DNA of 64,000 nt from Enterococcus mundtii (GTDB lineage Bacteria; Bacillota; Bacilli; Lactobacillales; Enterococcaceae): assembly GCF_003957375.1 (NCBI RefSeq), contig NZ_CP025473.1, positions 1,203,501-1,267,500 of the forward strand, in the 5' to 3' direction. A program made the position numbers and the translations under genes. The notes below the pieces were generated by a model. That model searched no databases. It saw nothing but the letters and a program-made list of their open reading frames with translations, and was not told where the DNA came from. Of the stretch, positions 5,000 through 56,855 are shown in pieces. The stretch's first letter is position 1. Every line of letters starts with the position of its first letter.

Positions 5000-5338
5000 A
5001 TGAGTGAACAAAAATGGTCTGCTGAAGAAGTAGATGAAATCAAAGAGCGAATTCTCACCGCGTTAGAAATGGTGATTGACCCAGAACTAGGAATCGATAT
5101 CGTGAACCTAGGTTTGATCTATGAAATCGAATTTGACCCTGAAAATGGAGATACCGTTGTTAAAATGACTTTGACAACGATGGGCTGTCCGTTAGCTGAT
5201 ATCTTGACTGAATCGATCCATGATGCACTAAAAGAAGTGCCAGAAGTGTCGAAAGCAGAAGTCAAATTAGTCTGGTATCCCGCTTGGACGACCGATAAAA
5301 TGAGTCGTTATGCACGAATTGCGCTTGGGATTCGTTAA
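5000..5338 (+). CDS. MIP18/DUF59 family metal-sulfur cluster assembly factor
   Basis: The 112-residue protein has the MIP18 (DUF59) signature: DPELGIDIVNLGLIYE around residue 26 and TTMGCPLADIL around residue 60, the latter with the conserved cysteine. Relatives (SufT, PaaD-like, yeast Cia2) help assemble or deliver iron-sulfur clusters. The ATG at 5000 follows AGAAGGAG at ten bases; an upstream GTG at 4979 lacks its own ribosome site. It is followed by a hairpin terminator. Confidence 0.88.
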   Translation: MSEQKWSAEEVDEIKERILTALEMVIDPELGIDIVNLGLIYEIEFDPENGDTVVKMTLTTMGCPLADILTESIHDALKEVPEVSKAEVKLVWYPAWTTDKMSRYARIALGIR

Positions 5339-50310: not shown

Positions 50311-52608
50311 GTGAGACGAGCGAATTTTGATTGGAAGGTCAATGAAACAACACCTTCTGAATCTTTTATCCAAATAATCAAACAGCAGCAATTGTCTCCT
50401 TTGATCGGTCAATTACTGTGGCAAAGAGGATACCGAGAGGAAGAAAGTATCCATCAGTTTTTACATCCAAAAGAACAAAAACTCTATGATCCTTATTTGA
50501 TGTTTGACATGGACAAGGCAATCAGCCGAATCCAAGAAGCGGTGATCAGCGGCGAGCAGATCTTAGTTTATGGAGATTATGATGCAGATGGTATCACCAG
50601 TGCGACCGTCATGAAAGAAACGTTAGAGTTGCTAGGTGCCCAAGTGGAAGTCTTTTTACCTAATCGATTTGAACATGGGTATGGACCTAATCTAACCGTT
50701 TATCAAGAAAAAATAGCCGCAGGTACCCAATTGATCGTGACTGTCGATAATGGTGTAGCTGGGCATGAAGCAATTGTTTATGCACAACAGCAGGGAGTAG
50801 ATGTGATCGTGACAGATCATCATGAGTTGCCTAGTGAATTACCGGCGGCTTATGCAATCATCCATCCCCGCCATCCACGAGGCAATTATCCTTTTGGAGA
50901 ATTAGCAGGTGTCGGTGTCGCATTTAAAGTAGCGACCGCTTTGTTGGAAGAACCACCAGCAGAATTTTTAGATTTAGTCGCAATTGGCACAATCGCTGAC
51001 CTTGTCTCTATGACCGATGAGAATCGGACGCTAGTGGCGTTAGGCTTAGAGGCAATTCGTCATACCGAGCGAGTAGGCTTACAGGCGCTGTTTGCGAAAA
51101 GTAGTGTACGTGCGAATGAAGCGGATGAAACGATGATCGGTTTTTCGATTGCGCCGCGCTTGAATGCCATCGGCCGGATGGGAGACCCTAATCCAGCGGT
51201 TGAATTACTAGCCACATTCGATGAAAGTCAAGCTCAGACGTTAGCCGAGCAGCTACAAACGGTCAATGAAGAACGTAAAGCGATCGTTGAGCAAATCACC
51301 TCAGAAGCATTGGCGATGATCAATGAAGAGAACCAGATCCATTTATTAGCACATCCTGGTTGGCATGAAGGTGTACTAGGGATCGTCGCAGGAAAAATCA
51401 TGAACAAAACAGGAAAACCAACAATCGTTCTAGATATCAAAGACCAGTCTGTTGCAAAAGGATCAGGTCGAAGTATCGAAGCGTTGAATCTTTTCGATAT
51501 GCTGAATGAGATGCGTGAATTGTTTACATTTTTTGGCGGCCATCATGCAGCAGTCGGATTAACAATGCCAACGGAAAATATCCCTCAGTTACAAGACCGG
51601 ATGAATGCTTATATAGAAGAAAAGCAAATCGACTTGTCCAAAGGTCCTGTGTTGGCGATCGATGAAATCGTCTCCCCAAAAGATGTAACGGTCGAACAAA
51701 TCGCCACATTGAAATTACTGGCACCATTCGGAACAGATAATCCTGTACCTAACTTTTTATTCAAACAGGTTGCTGTCCAAAATGTGAAACGAATCGGCTC
51801 GAACCAACAGCACTTGAAGCTCTCTTTAATAGATGAAGATAGTCAATTAGATGCTGTCGCGTTTGGTTTTGGCCCTCAAGAAAACGAATTTGTAGACGAT
51901 TCACTTGATATTGTAGGACAATTATCGATCAATGAATGGAATGGGCGCAAAAAACCGCAGCTGATGATTTCTGACTTTGAAGTAGAAGGATTGCAAGTAT
52001 TTGATTGGCGAGCGAAACGTTACCGAACACTAGCAAATGACATCGAAAGTCCGTTCTATTTAGCGTTTGATGAAGCATCGATCAAAGAACTAAATGAGTC
52101 GATACAAAAACACATCATTCGTTGGACAGATAAAGAAATGATTCAATCATGGATTCAGGAAAATGAACCAAACGCATTAGTCGTGATCGATTGTCCAACG
52201 GATTTGACCGACTTGAAAGAGATCTTATCATTTGGCTCCTTTAGCCGAGTTTACTTTTTAGGTATTTCTGTTGATGAAGCATACTTGAACGGTGTAGGAA
52301 CAAGAGAACAATATGCTCGACTCTTCAAACTGATCCATGCGCAAGAACGGATCGATATCCGACATAAATTAGGTGCAATGGCCAATTATTTAAAAATTCC
52401 ACAAAAATTATTAATTTTTATGATACAGGTGTTTTTTGAGTTGAAGTTTGTTACAATAAACAATGGTGTTTTGGAGAAAGTCGCAGATCCGGCGAGTCAT
52501 CCATTGACTGCAAGTGACCGCTATCAGGAGCGATTAAAAAAAATCAAGTCAGAGGAATTCTTACTATTAAGTGACATTCCCACAATAAAAGAATGGTTAA
52601 CAACCTAG
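50311..52608 (+). CDS. recJ: Single-stranded-DNA exonuclease RecJ
   Basis: The 765-residue 5'-3' exonuclease has DHH motif I YGDYDADGITSATVM (about 88), motif III TDHHELP (about 170), DHHA1 with GRSIEALNLF and FFGGHHAAVGL (about 405-412), an OB-fold, and a firmicute-specific C-terminal domain. It acts in recombination and mismatch repair. GTG follows GGGGTGAGC closely. It is 13 bases upstream of apt, an order common in firmicutes. Confidence 0.95.
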   Translation: MRRANFDWKVNETTPSESFIQIIKQQQLSPLIGQLLWQRGYREEESIHQFLHPKEQKLYDPYLMFDMDKAISRIQEAVISGEQILVYGDYDADGITSATVMKETLELLGAQVEVFLPNRFEHGYGPNLTVYQEKIAAGTQLIVTVDNGVAGHEAIVYAQQQGVDVIVTDHHELPSELPAAYAIIHPRHPRGNYPFGELAGVGVAFKVATALLEEPPAEFLDLVAIGTIADLVSMTDENRTLVALGLEAIRHTERVGLQALFAKSSVRANEADETMIGFSIAPRLNAIGRMGDPNPAVELLATFDESQAQTLAEQLQTVNEERKAIVEQITSEALAMINEENQIHLLAHPGWHEGVLGIVAGKIMNKTGKPTIVLDIKDQSVAKGSGRSIEALNLFDMLNEMRELFTFFGGHHAAVGLTMPTENIPQLQDRMNAYIEEKQIDLSKGPVLAIDEIVSPKDVTVEQIATLKLLAPFGTDNPVPNFLFKQVAVQNVKRIGSNQQHLKLSLIDEDSQLDAVAFGFGPQENEFVDDSLDIVGQLSINEWNGRKKPQLMISDFEVEGLQVFDWRAKRYRTLANDIESPFYLAFDEASIKELNESIQKHIIRWTDKEMIQSWIQENEPNALVVIDCPTDLTDLKEILSFGSFSRVYFLGISVDEAYLNGVGTREQYARLFKLIHAQERIDIRHKLGAMANYLKIPQKLLIFMIQVFFELKFVTINNGVLEKVADPASHPLTASDRYQERLKKIKSEEFLLLSDIPTIKEWLTT

Positions 52609-52621
52609 GAGGAAACAATAA

Positions 52622-53134
52622 GTGGATTTAAAAAATTATATTGCCAGTATTCCTGACTATCCGTCAAAAGGAATTATATTTAGAGATATCTCGCCATTGA
52701 TGGCTGATGGAGACGCTTATCGTGAAGCAACGAAGCAAATCGTTGATTATGCGAAAGAAAAACGTATCGATATGGTCGTTGGACCAGAAGCACGTGGATT
52801 TATCGTAGGTTGTCCAGTGGCTTACGAATTAGGCGTGGGCTTTGCTCCTGTTCGTAAAAAAGGAAAATTACCTCGTGAAACGATCGAAGTCACTTACGGA
52901 CTTGAATACGGTACAGATACCTTGACGCTGCACAAAGATGCAATTCAACCAGGACAAAGAGTCTTGATCTGTGATGATTTATTAGCAACAGGTGGAACAA
53001 TCAAAGCAACGATCGAATTGATCGAAGAACTTGGCGGAGTTGTTGTGGGTTGTGCCTTTTTGATCGAGTTGATGGACTTGCATGGTCGTGACAAAATCGA
53101 AGGCTACGACATGATTACCTTGATGGAGTATTAA
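52622..53134 (+). CDS. apt: Adenine phosphoribosyltransferase
   Basis: The 170-residue purine salvage enzyme makes AMP from adenine and [51 protein letters not shown] and the PRPP loop [16 protein letters not shown] (about 121-136) are diagnostic. GTG lies nine bases after AGGAGG. Co-transcribed with recJ. Confidence 0.96.
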
Positions 53135-53157
53135 TCAAATAAAATATTGAACAGAAA

Positions 53158-53202
53158 CCCCCCTTCCACAAACGGATGAATCGTTTGCGGAAGGGGATTT
53201 TC
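53158..53202 (+). terminator. Intrinsic terminator after apt
   Basis: CCCCTTCC-CAAACG pairs with CGTTTG-GGAAGGGG then ATTTTCG. Confidence 0.75.
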
Positions 53203-53338
53203 GTTGGATGAGTAGCCTCAATTTATTGATGGAACAATTGAGTGCAAGGAGTAGGTAGTCAGTTTGTCGTTAAAAAAAGCAAACGAGCGATCATCGTTTG
53301 CTTGGACGGAATTTTCATAGAAGCGATCTTATTTACTT

Positions 53339-53557
53339 TTACGAGTGCCTGGAGCTGTAATAGGTTTCGTGATAGAAGGAGTCTTCATGGGATTGACGAC
53401 GTTGTGATTGACGGTATTTTTTTTCATCCCACAACATAAACCACAATGTAAACAAAGGAACAAAAACCAACAATGCTGTACGTAGACCAAAATTACCAAT
53501 AATAATACCTAAAAACAAAACGATCAATACTAAACCAAAACGTCTCATTGATTTCAT
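53339..53557 (-). CDS. Small membrane protein under a double LexA operator; candidate SOS-induced division inhibitor
   Basis: The 72-residue protein starts MKSMRRFGLVLIVLF and has hydrophobic stretches at about 7-21 and 26-43, then a 29-residue polar tail rich in Arg, His, Ser, Gln and Tyr. There is no LysM domain. ATG 53557 has GAGGTG six bases upstream. Its promoter contains two perfect LexA boxes. It lies directly beyond lexA, but behind lexA's terminator, so it is a separate SOS unit. YneA (Bacillus) and SosA (Staphylococcus) are SOS-induced membrane inhibitors of division near lexA; this protein resembles them in size, topology and setting, not in recognisable sequence. Function is inferred only. 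Confidence 0.72.
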   Translation of the reverse strand: MKSMRRFGLVLIVLFLGIIIGNFGLRTALLVFVPLFTLWFMLWDEKKYRQSQRRQSHEDSFYHETYYSSRHS

Positions 53558-53580
53558 GATTTTCACCTCTTTATAGAATG

Positions 53581-53630
53581 CGAACAAAAGTTCGTACCGT
53601 TAGTATACGAACTTTTGTTCGGTTTGTAAA
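53581..53630 (-). promoter_or_regulatory. SOS promoter with two perfect LexA boxes
   Basis: On the reverse strand TTTACA (53630-53625), 17 bases, TATACT (53607-53602). CGAACAAAAGTTCG occurs twice: at 53608-53621 (reverse strand), filling the spacer, and at 53581-53594 just after the start region. Centres are 27 bp apart. Both match GAAC-N4-GTTC perfectly, including C/G flanks. Confidence 0.85.
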
Positions 53631-53663
53631 GAGGGAAGTTCAAAAAGAACAAAGATATCTACT

Positions 53664-53707
53664 AAAAAGAGGAAAAGACGAGCTTGAGATCGTGATCTCA
53701 AGCTCGT
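53664..53707 (-). terminator. Terminator of lexA
   Basis: ACGAGCTTGAGATC pairs with GATCTCAAGCTCGT; on the reverse strand CTTTTCCTCTTTTT follows. Confidence 0.8.
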
Positions 53708-53735
53708 AGATAAATAACTGAATTTTCTTTTCTTA

Positions 53736-54359
53736 TCAATAAATATGACTACGGTACAGACCAACGACACGACCTAAGATCGACACCTCATCTAAAATGA
53801 TCGGTTCCAGTAAATCATTCTCGGGTTGCAAACGGAAATGATCTCTTTCTTTATAGAACCGTTTGCAAGTTGCTTCGTCTTCTGCAGTCATCGCAATCAC
53901 GATATCACCATTTTGTGCAGTTTCTTGTTTGCGGACAATGACATTATCGCCATCCAATATCCCAGCATTGATCATACTTTCTCCTCGGATCGTCAACATG
54001 AACAGACTGCCTTCTTCTGAGGAAAGGTTTGGTGGGACTGGAAAGAAGTCAGAAGCTTCTTCGACAGCTAGTATCGGCTCTCCGGCAGTAACAACGCCGA
54101 GAACAGGGATCGTCGTTGGGCGAATCCCAATTTTTGATAATCCTTGTTGCGTCAATTCGATTGCACGTGGTTTCGTAGGGTCTCTTTGAATAAAGCCTTT
54201 TTTCTCTAATCGGGCAAGATGACCATGGACTGTCGATGTTGAAGAAAGCTGAACAGCTTCTCCGATCTCACGGACAGTCGGTGGATAGCCTTTTTGGGTC
54301 ACTTGTTCGTGAATATATCTTAAGACTTCGATTTGTCTTGTTTCAGTTTGTCGGGCCAC
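53736..54359 (-). CDS. lexA: LexA repressor
   Basis: The 207-residue SOS repressor has an N-terminal winged helix ([51 protein letters not shown]), the self-cleavage Ala-Gly in VVTAGEP (about residues 93-94), catalytic Ser in [10 protein letters not shown] (about 129) and Lys in [11 protein letters not shown] region's upstream [14 protein letters not shown] (about 168). GTG 54359 follows AAGGTG by six bases; an in-frame GTG at 54368 overlaps that site. It is divergent from ynzC and self-regulated. Confidence 0.95.
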
Positions 54360-54389
54360 AAGGTACACCTTCTTTCACTTGATAACTAA

Positions 54390-54429
54390 ATAGTACCATA
54401 GAAAACACTTGATTTCAAACAAATGTTCG
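54390..54429 (-). promoter_or_regulatory. lexA promoter with near-consensus LexA box
   Basis: On the reverse strand TTGAAA, 17 bases, TACTAT. CGAACATTTGTTTG (54429-54416) overlaps the -35 and differs from GAAC-N4-GTTC at one position. Autoregulation is inferred. Confidence 0.7.
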
Positions 54430-54510
54430 CATTAAAGACTATTGATGTAGTTGTTTTTTTTTCATTTTTTATATAAGATGTAGGAGAAGCAAAAGCGAGG
54501 AGGAATAGTT

Positions 54511-54762
54511 GTGTTATCGCCTGAAAAAATCGAACGTATCAATCAGTTAGCTAAAAAGAAAAAAGCAGAAGGATTGACACCAGCTGAAGTCAAAGAGCAA
54601 AAGGAATTACGAGAAGCATATCTGACAGCCTTTCGTTCTGGCATGAGACATCATATTGAAGGGATGAAAGTGGTTGATCCCGATGGAAATGATGTCACAC
54701 CAGATAAATTGAAAGAAATCCAGAAGAAAAAAGGCCTCCACGACCGAAATAGCAAGTTTTAG
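54511..54762 (+). CDS. ynzC: YnzC (DUF896) family protein
   Basis: The 83-residue helical protein ([41 protein letters not shown], then [16 protein letters not shown]) is a clear DUF896 member. In Bacillus ynzC lies in the SOS operon with yneA and yneB beside lexA and before tkt. Here yneA and yneB are absent, and ynzC directly faces lexA. GTG follows GAGGAGG. No LexA box overlaps its likely promoter core. Confidence 0.9.
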
Positions 54763-54860
54763 TAAAAAAAACTAAAAGTCGTTGCTTTTTTAGAGGAGAT
54801 ACTATAAAATTAGAAGTAGAAATATAGGTAAAAAAAACCTAAATTACAGGAGGGGTTACA

Positions 54861-56855
54861 TTGTTTGATAAAATTGATCAGCTTGGTGTGAATACGATCC
54901 GTACATTGAGTGTCGATGCAGTACAAAAAGCAAATTCAGGACATCCGGGGTTACCAATGGGTGCCGCGCCAATGGCTTATGCCCTTTGGACGAAACACTT
55001 GAAAGTGAATCCGAAAACTTCTAAAAACTGGGCAGACCGTGACCGTTTTGTCTTATCGGCAGGACATGGTTCAGCGATGTTGTACAGCTTGTTGCACTTA
55101 GCAGGGTACCAAGTAACGATTGATGACTTGAAACAATTCCGTCAATGGGATTCAAAAACACCAGGACACCCTGAGGTCAACCATACGGACGGCGTCGAAG
55201 CAACGACTGGTCCTTTAGGTCAGGGGATCGCGATGGCTGTGGGGATGGCGATGGCAGAAGCGCATCTAGCAGCGACCTATAACAAAGATCAGTTCAACGT
55301 CGTTGATCATTATACGTATGCGTTATGTGGTGATGGCGACCTGATGGAAGGTGTGTCTCAAGAAGCAAGTTCGATGGCTGGTCATATGAAATTAGGGAAA
55401 TTAATCGTTTTATACGATTCAAACGATATTTCTTTAGACGGACCAACCTCAAAAGCCTTCACTGAAAATGTTGGCGCACGCTATGAAGCTTATGGTTGGC
55501 AACATATCTTGGTCAAAGACGGCAATGATTTAGAAGCCATCTCAAAAGCTATCGAAGAAGCGAAAGCCGAAACAGACAAACCGACATTGATCGAAGTGAA
55601 AACGGTCATCGGATTTGGTGCACCAAACCAAGGAACTTCTGCAGTCCATGGCGCACCACTTGGCTTAGAAGGCATTCAAAAAGCCAAAGAGATCTATGGT
55701 TGGGAATACCCTGACTTTACCGTACCAGAAGAAGTGGCGGGACGCTTCCGTCAAACGATGGTTGAAGAAGGCGAAAAAGCTGAAAATGCTTGGCGTGAGC
55801 TGTTCGCAGCATACAAAGCAGCGTATCCAGAATTAGCCCAACAATTTGAAGATGCCTTTGCTGGGAAATTACCAGAGAATTGGGATGCAGAACTTCCAAC
55901 GTATGACGAAGGTGAAAGTCAAGCAAGTCGTGTCTCAAGTAAAGAAGTCATCCAAGAATTATCAAAAGCGATCCCAAGCTTCTGGGGTGGTTCTGCCGAT
56001 CTATCTGGATCAAACAATACGATGGTCACAGCAGACAAAGACTTCACGCCTGAACACTATGAAGGCCGCAACATTTGGTTTGGTGTTCGTGAGTTTGCGA
56101 TGGCATCAGCGATGAACGGGATCCAATTGCATGGCGGTACCCGGATCTATGGAGGAACATTCTTTGTCTTTGTCGATTATTTGCGACCAGCTGTGCGTTT
56201 AGCAGCGATCCAAAACACGCCAGTCATTTATGTCTTGACCCATGACTCTGTGGCAGTAGGTGAAGATGGCCCGACACATGAGCCAGTGGAACAATTGGCT
56301 TCGGTTAGAAGTATGCCAGGTGTCCATGTCTTACGTCCGGCGGACGGGAACGAAACTCGTGCAGCGTGGAAAGTTGCGATGGAATCCACAGATACACCAA
56401 CGATCTTAGTCTTGAGTCGTCAAAATCTACCAGTTCTTCCATCAACGAAAGAAGTGGCAGATGATATGGTTAAAAAAGGTGCCTATGTCTTGTCACCAGC
56501 TAAAGGGGAACAACCAGAAGGAATCTTGATCGCGACAGGTTCAGAAGTGGATCTAGCTGTCAAAGCGCAAAAAGTATTGGCGGAACAAGGAAAAGATGTT
56601 TCAGTGGTTTCTATGCCAAGTTTTGATTTGTTTGAAGAACAATCCGCGGAATATCAAGAAAGTGTTTTGCCAAAAGCAGTGACGAAGCGTGTTGCGATTG
56701 AAGCAGCTGCTTCATTTGGATGGGAACGTTATGTAGGAATCGAAGGTCAAACGATTACGATCGATCACTTTGGTGCTTCTGCTCCTGGAAACAAAATACT
56801 TGAAGAATTTGGTTTTACAGTAGATAATGTAGTCAACGTCTTCAATCAATTATAG
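54861..56855 (+). CDS. tkt: Transketolase
   Basis: The 664-residue thiamine-diphosphate enzyme of the pentose phosphate pathway has [18 protein letters not shown], the TPP motif [38 protein letters not shown] (about 153-190), [14 protein letters not shown] and [18 protein letters not shown]. Length is usual. TTG start lies after AGGAGGGG. It is 98 bases beyond ynzC, the same order as in Bacillus. Confidence 0.97.

Follow-up and report, generated by a model that had tools for sequence, protein, structure and literature searches.

The gene at 53557-53339 (minus strand) of the window, the whole 64-kb stretch of DNA that was analysed, encodes a 72-residue membrane protein (MKSMRRFGLVLIVLFLGIIIGNFGLRTALLVFVPLFTLWFMLWDEKKYRQSQRRQSHEDSFYHETYYSSRHS) that probably serves as the effector of the SOS checkpoint in Enterococcus and Vagococcus. 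We infer a division-halting role from its LexA boxes, its place, a distribution complementary to that of YneA, and the precedent of Gram-positive division inhibitors. Three features of the functional class of SOS-controlled small membrane division inhibitors were found here: a LexA operator at the promoter (by sequence), a gene near lexA, and a small membrane protein (by prediction). The same role as YneA and SosA is plausible; the same mechanism is not implied. The gene is a specific, testable candidate, present in almost all genomes of two families, and its regulatory signature lends itself to scanning. Among the literature matches listed, judged by titles and abstract openings and with most subscription journals outside the scope, we found no description of an enterococcal SOS division inhibitor or of this gene.

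Promoter, operators and locus

The features of the locus are collected in Table 1. The gene appears to form a single transcription unit between two terminator-like hairpins, the stronger of which is on the lexA side. Its promoter is the best of five of this kind within the window (shuffles give 3.0), and the two LexA boxes, one in the spacer and one just downstream, start 27 bp apart (53608 and 53581). The original prediction had named this promoter, both boxes, a membrane protein with two hydrophobic stretches and a polar tail, a terminator separating the gene from lexA, and ynzC and tkt still beside lexA. All of these were recovered; the hydrophobic region is predicted as two helices, and the presumed tkt ORF is the next one beyond the DUF896 gene that adjoins lexA.

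Table 1. Coordinates of the 72-residue gene, its control elements and its neighbours in the window
Feature	Position	Strand	Remarks
CDS, 72-residue membrane protein, two predicted helices	53339..53557	-	start codon ATG at 53557; 72 codons; range includes the stop, at 53339
Ribosome-binding site AGAGGTG	53564..53570	-	read from sequence; graded good
Sigma-A-type promoter TTTACA-17-TATACT	53602..53630	-	10/12 matches
LexA box 1, inside -35/-10 spacer	53608..53621	.	perfect palindrome CGAACN4GTTCG
LexA box 2, near expected transcription start	53581..53594	.	perfect palindrome CGAACN4GTTCG
Terminator-like hairpin between lexA and the 72-residue gene	53678..53707	-	-20.2 kcal/mol, z -5.8
Terminator-like hairpin and T run 3' of the 72-residue gene	53277..53303	-	z -1.5, modest
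lexA	53736..54368	-	TIGR00498, 227.7 bits vs cut-off 110.95
LexA box of lexA promoter, CGAACATTTGTTTG	54416..54429	.	
ynzC-type gene (DUF896)	54511..54762	+	PF05979, PRK02539
Presumed transketolase gene tkt	54861..56855	+	ORF; locus marker, used as synteny probe
Presumed apt-type gene, flanking the 72-residue gene on the side away from lexA	52622..53134	+	ORF; used as synteny probe

We asked how far these operators stand out from chance. The genome that holds the window comprises 2.83 Mb in two contigs and contains the perfect palindrome CGAACN4GTTCG at three places. Two of them front the 72-residue gene. The third fronts a paralogue (C1:1107614-1107823; L002 1501-1716), 62% identical to the 72-residue protein and present in 3 of the 15 genomes of the genus, which has a second LexA box with one mismatch 27 bp from the perfect one. 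The lexA promoter and a gene on the second contig that reads as UmuC-like both carry CGAACN4GTTTG. The count of boxes in the window is not unusual, with three occurrences of GAACN4GTTC (mean 1.2; 8 of 100 shuffles reach 3). Because the pattern with one mismatch allowed is not specific genome-wide (50 places versus 61 for the reversed control), the box analysis was restricted to perfect palindromes and conserved pairs. A chance origin of the pair was rejected: a pair within 150 bp was seen in none of 5100 base shuffles of upstream regions and in none of 3523 flanking windows. What goes beyond chance is the pair and its conservation, not the box count in the window.

The positions of two boxes elsewhere in this genome were noted. 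The second contig is 58 kb long, perhaps a plasmid, and its LexA box (C2:28485-28498, L011) is at the start of the UmuC-like polymerase gene. A LexA-like box at C1:1104546-1104559 (L006), 3 kb from the paralogue, sits 137 bp inside a 233-codon ORF of unknown function.

Conservation of the pair was assessed at two sets of loci, counting boxes within 150 bp and allowing up to two mismatches per box. The first set holds 51 loci, one of them a paralogue (L052), and the second 51 further non-prophage loci, 27 from the Vagococcus family and 24 from Enterococcaceae; two genomes are counted in both sets (L125 = L076, L127 = L088). Twin boxes lie ahead of 50 of the 51 first-set loci. In 47 they fall within 150 bp, at a spacing of exactly 27 bp in every case, and in three (L083, L084 and L087) the pair is further upstream, ahead of a longer leader, still spaced by 27 bp. 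The second set has the pair at 48 of 51 loci, with a spacing of 26-35 bp (30 at 27), and a single box at the other three. Across Enterococcus and Vagococcus the operators are conserved in sequence, position and spacing, which supports the original prediction. At the sole first-set locus without boxes (L080, Enterococcus sp. CSURQ0835, near 5001), the gene begins 28 nt after the lexA stop and may therefore be co-transcribed from the lexA promoter, perhaps as a natural operon fusion. In E. viikkiensis (L083, 4764-4990) and E. devriesei (L087, 4762-4990), the lengthened leader between twin boxes and gene contains two copies of a 72-73 nt sequence at a distance of 155-156 bp.

The operators do not depend on proximity to lexA, which adjoins the gene in 35 of 51 first-set and 45 of 51 second-set loci. 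The 16 first-set loci where it does not adjoin are the paralogue, two loci with cut flanks (L067, L076), and 13 of the E. moraviensis kind, in which apt adjoins the gene and the 5 kb read (a shorter stretch in L074, near a contig end) contains no lexA. The same apt-linked arrangement, with lexA not beside the gene, is found in G015 (L151), which we took to be E. faecalis-like from its 94% match to phage phiFL2A, and a few loci of the Vagococcus family also have lexA away from the gene. Three genomes without adjacency (G015, G072 and G078) were tested, and lexA was found elsewhere in each. The boxes are retained at all of these loci, indicating that they are the gene's own and not a spill-over from the lexA promoter. 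Sequence alone could offer no better case for SOS control.

The protein and the spread of its family

The 72-residue protein shares 99% identity with an Enterococcus mundtii protein, from which we take the source to be E. mundtii or a near relative. It has a hydrophobic stretch at residues 8-42 with K/R on both sides. Because these residues both precede and follow the stretch, the positive-inside rule suggests that both ends of the protein are cytoplasmic, in a two-helix hairpin. An AlphaFold2 model of modest confidence (mean pLDDT 74.6, pTM 0.44) places helices at residues 2-20 and 25-70. Members of the family are 57-90 residues long, phage-type copies included, and share one plan. The N-terminus is basic; the hydrophobic stretch that comes next is interrupted by G-x2-G and extends to about residue 43; the motif W-x3-WD follows, and the polar tail is about 14-46 residues long. 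The first acidic pair after residue 30, used to mark where the hydrophobic region ends, starts at residue 44 in 105 of 111 members (nine phage-type copies included). W39, W43 and D44 are invariant in all 24 rows of alignment A2; W-x3-WD is relaxed in some copies from the Vagococcus family and from phages.

No Pfam or NCBIfam family matched the 72-residue protein at cut-off; MFS_1, YxzE, DUF2897, CcmI and PP0621 were rejected, their matches being below the curated cut-offs. The best Pfam match among the A2 members is again MFS_1 (E 1.4e-4, 11 members). It was set aside as generic membrane-helix resemblance, as were PDB matches to transporter chains (best E 0.011) and one PADLOC model that 2 of 24 members matched at a best E of 0.01. 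The protein does match phrog_1270, a family of unknown function, at E 2e-8, as do all 24 A2 members (best E 1.5e-9).

The spread of the family was followed in 105 genomes of Enterococcaceae and 29 of a second family. The latter contains Vagococcus, as two of its genomes encode proteins identical to the V. salmoninarum and V. acidifermentans ones; NCBI classes Vagococcus within Enterococcaceae. Matches were found in all 15 genomes of the genus, in 101 of the 105 Enterococcaceae and in 28 of the 29 Vagococcus-family genomes, one of which (G247) has only fragments with stops. In the order sample, 98 of 395 genomes match, 70 from Enterococcaceae and 28 from the Vagococcus family. In the class sample of 398 Bacilli genomes, 9 match, all from these two families, with no match outside them, and a plasmid search gave no match. 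dN/dS is 0.03-0.12 in eight orthologue pairs (one calculated on the first 40 codons) and 0.44 against the paralogue (first 60 codons), values that point to purifying selection on the orthologues. The five genomes without a family match (4 of 105 and 1 of 29) all keep lexA. Four have no boxed gene in the roughly 1.5 kb downstream of lexA; the fifth, G066, is a 76% complete genome whose contig stops some 70 bp beyond lexA. In such genomes the role is therefore dispensable or otherwise filled, which counts against an SOS effector.

A small protein with two predicted hydrophobic helices and a strong LexA box signature could also be a membrane-active peptide. TisB, a small membrane peptide induced in the SOS response, is the precedent: a protein of this kind would insert into the membrane and lower the membrane potential, leading to growth arrest or persistence, and would not act on the divisome. 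We consider this unlikely. The hairpin protein differs from TisB-type peptides in its conserved polar motif and tail, which suggest a binding partner, and an Rfam scan of 52600-55000 gave no match, so no known antitoxin RNA lies there. Near-universal conservation of the kind seen here, together with the low dN/dS among orthologues, also speaks against it, as such conservation is unusual for type I toxins.

Known SOS inhibitors and a proposed mechanism

The gene for YneA lies between lexA and ynzC. Here the gap between these two genes is about 140 bp, leaving no room for yneA, and the model NF010723 / PRK14125, which we take to be that of YneA, has ten matches in this genome, all below the cut-off of 60 bits (best 38.6 bits, in longer frames). 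B. subtilis is the one control genome above this cut-off. The absence of yneA from the locus, part of the original prediction, is thus upheld, and the claim of an unrelated sequence is supported: the 72 residues gave no match to NF010723 or LysM up to E 10. Across the order, NF010723 is above cut-off in 35 of 395 genomes, all of one family (f7), probably Listeriaceae, and at E 1e-10 it has no match in any Enterococcaceae or Vagococcus-family genome of this sample. No genome is shared between these 35 and the 98 with the hairpin family, the two order samples of 395 being apparently the same genomes. YneA and the hairpin family are distributed complementarily within the order.

Known SOS division inhibitors of Gram-positive bacteria are commonly encoded near lexA and mostly share little sequence; YneA and SosA, among others, cross the membrane once and have their C-terminus outside the cell (PMC6851548). 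YneA combines its single segment with an extracellular LysM domain (PMC13396833, PMC6051672, PMC6851548). Its target is FtsW, and low-confidence models put ChiZ, SosA and SidA on FtsW as well (PMC13396833). SosA has 77 residues, a single membrane segment and a C-terminus placed outside by fusions, and its gene is divergent from lexA (PMC6851548).

The hairpin protein resembles YneA of Bacillus and Listeria in being a small, LexA-controlled membrane protein from the lexA neighbourhood. It differs in having two predicted helices and no LysM match where YneA has one segment and LysM, in the lack of a match to the YneA model, and in the position of its gene on the other side of lexA instead of between lexA and ynzC. 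With SosA of Staphylococcus it shares small size, LexA control, a place beside lexA, the lack of LysM and no clear relation to YneA. However, its gene is downstream of lexA on the same strand, whereas that of SosA is divergent, and its ends are predicted to be cytoplasmic (helices 2-20 and 25-70); it is set apart from SosA by this predicted topology and by the description of SosA. SidA and DidA of Caulobacter are likewise small membrane proteins and halt division when DNA is damaged, but they are proteobacterial and bind FtsW/FtsN. ChiZ and DivS are single-segment inhibitors, unlike the predicted two-helix hairpin. We therefore file the protein under neither YneA nor SosA, because the YneA model, LysM and the position of yneA do not fit it and its predicted topology is not that of SosA; its regulation is like theirs, and its role probably is too.

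Upon DNA damage, RecA drives the self-cleavage of LexA. Before this, bound LexA would block polymerase at the promoter spacer and near the transcription start; cleavage would free both operators, giving strong induction of the gene. The protein would then insert as a hairpin with its basic N-terminus and polar tail both in the cytoplasm, and W-x3-WD, at the inner membrane face, could grip a membrane component of the division machinery. Going by what is shown for YneA and modelled for SosA, the first candidate targets would be FtsW and the proteins that partner it. Septation would wait until repair is done. If action at the cytoplasmic face is true, it would be a different way to stop division, as the active parts of YneA and SosA are outside.

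Several points weigh against a checkpoint effector. The absence of YneA leaves room for another division inhibitor, and membrane-active peptides of the TisB type, which have other functions, are also SOS-induced. The predicted topology is unlike that of the single-segment YneA, SosA, ChiZ and DivS, and the relaxation of W-x3-WD in some Vagococcus-family and phage copies likewise counts against it.

Phage relatives

Ten copies away from lexA, L028, L173 and L180 among them, were taken as phage-type, and none has boxes within 150 bp. For the other seven (L172, L175, L176, L177, L178, L179 and L181), 20 neighbouring proteins were scanned. On the upstream side, each of the seven has phage repressors or antirepressors, other regulators, or phage metalloproteases. 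RecE, RecT, primase or replication initiators lie downstream in five (L172, L175, L177, L178 and L181); L176 is followed by a protein of unknown function, and the scan of L179 covered no downstream protein. Relatives of the L177 copy were found in E. faecalis phages phiFL1-3 and SEsuP-1 (11 records; a twelfth is chromosomal). The match in phiFL2A is in two pieces between a Rha-like regulator and the RecE/RecT genes, mostly ahead of the annotated gp12. A phage search with the L028 copy returned nothing. The early-region position, seen in five of the seven copies and alike in phiFL2A, points to host takeover and not lysis.

These relatives raise the question of whether the chromosomal gene is a domesticated phage membrane protein that serves prophage biology, through exclusion, induction timing or shielding of the host membrane while the prophage is induced. 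The match of all 24 A2 members to phrog_1270, the boxless copies with phage genes around the seven examined, and the phiFL relatives are consistent with such an origin. We judge it quite unlikely, since the main copy sits at the largely conserved lexA/apt locus, has LexA boxes of its own and is near-universal in two families, whereas the phage-type copies are diverged (25-33% identity in the nine compared) and scattered. The match to phrog_1270 is one of sequence family; the ten phage-type copies differ in their lack of LexA boxes, the annotated ones lying among phage genes. A tree of 47 copies, from chromosomes and phages, did not resolve which way transfer between host and phage went (too few columns, long phage branches).

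The lexA neighbourhood and the LexA boxes would also suit a protein that regulates the SOS response, such as a membrane partner for a protease clearing LexA or RecA-dependent products. Such a role is very improbable: lexA does not adjoin the gene in the E. moraviensis group or in the E. faecalis-like genome, and the analysis turned up no pointer to a protease. A holin-like or lysis accessory protein, which could likewise be a small membrane protein with two predicted helices, is extremely unlikely, as the match of 2 of 24 members to a holin PHROG (best E 0.096) is at noise level and the examined phage relatives are near early genes and not by endolysin genes.

For the checkpoint effector, the phage copies suggest an extension. 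Phages would carry diverged early-region copies probably to stop host division during induction. We tentatively propose that in enterococci and vagococci the family represents an undescribed class of DNA-damage checkpoint protein, a cytoplasm-facing hairpin under a doubled LexA operator that would stop the divisome from inside, and that temperate phages infecting these hosts share the family for early host takeover. We keep this proposal tentative because the early-region position holds for five of the seven phage-type copies examined and some copies depart from W-x3-WD. If true, the phage copies would link the checkpoint and host takeover.

Two wastewater records were rejected as phages carrying the chromosomal-type gene and left out of the phage count. 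OR847331.1 (L198) carries lexA, ynzC, tkt and apt, and OR846632.1 (L197) carries apt; both look like pieces of Enterococcus chromosome.
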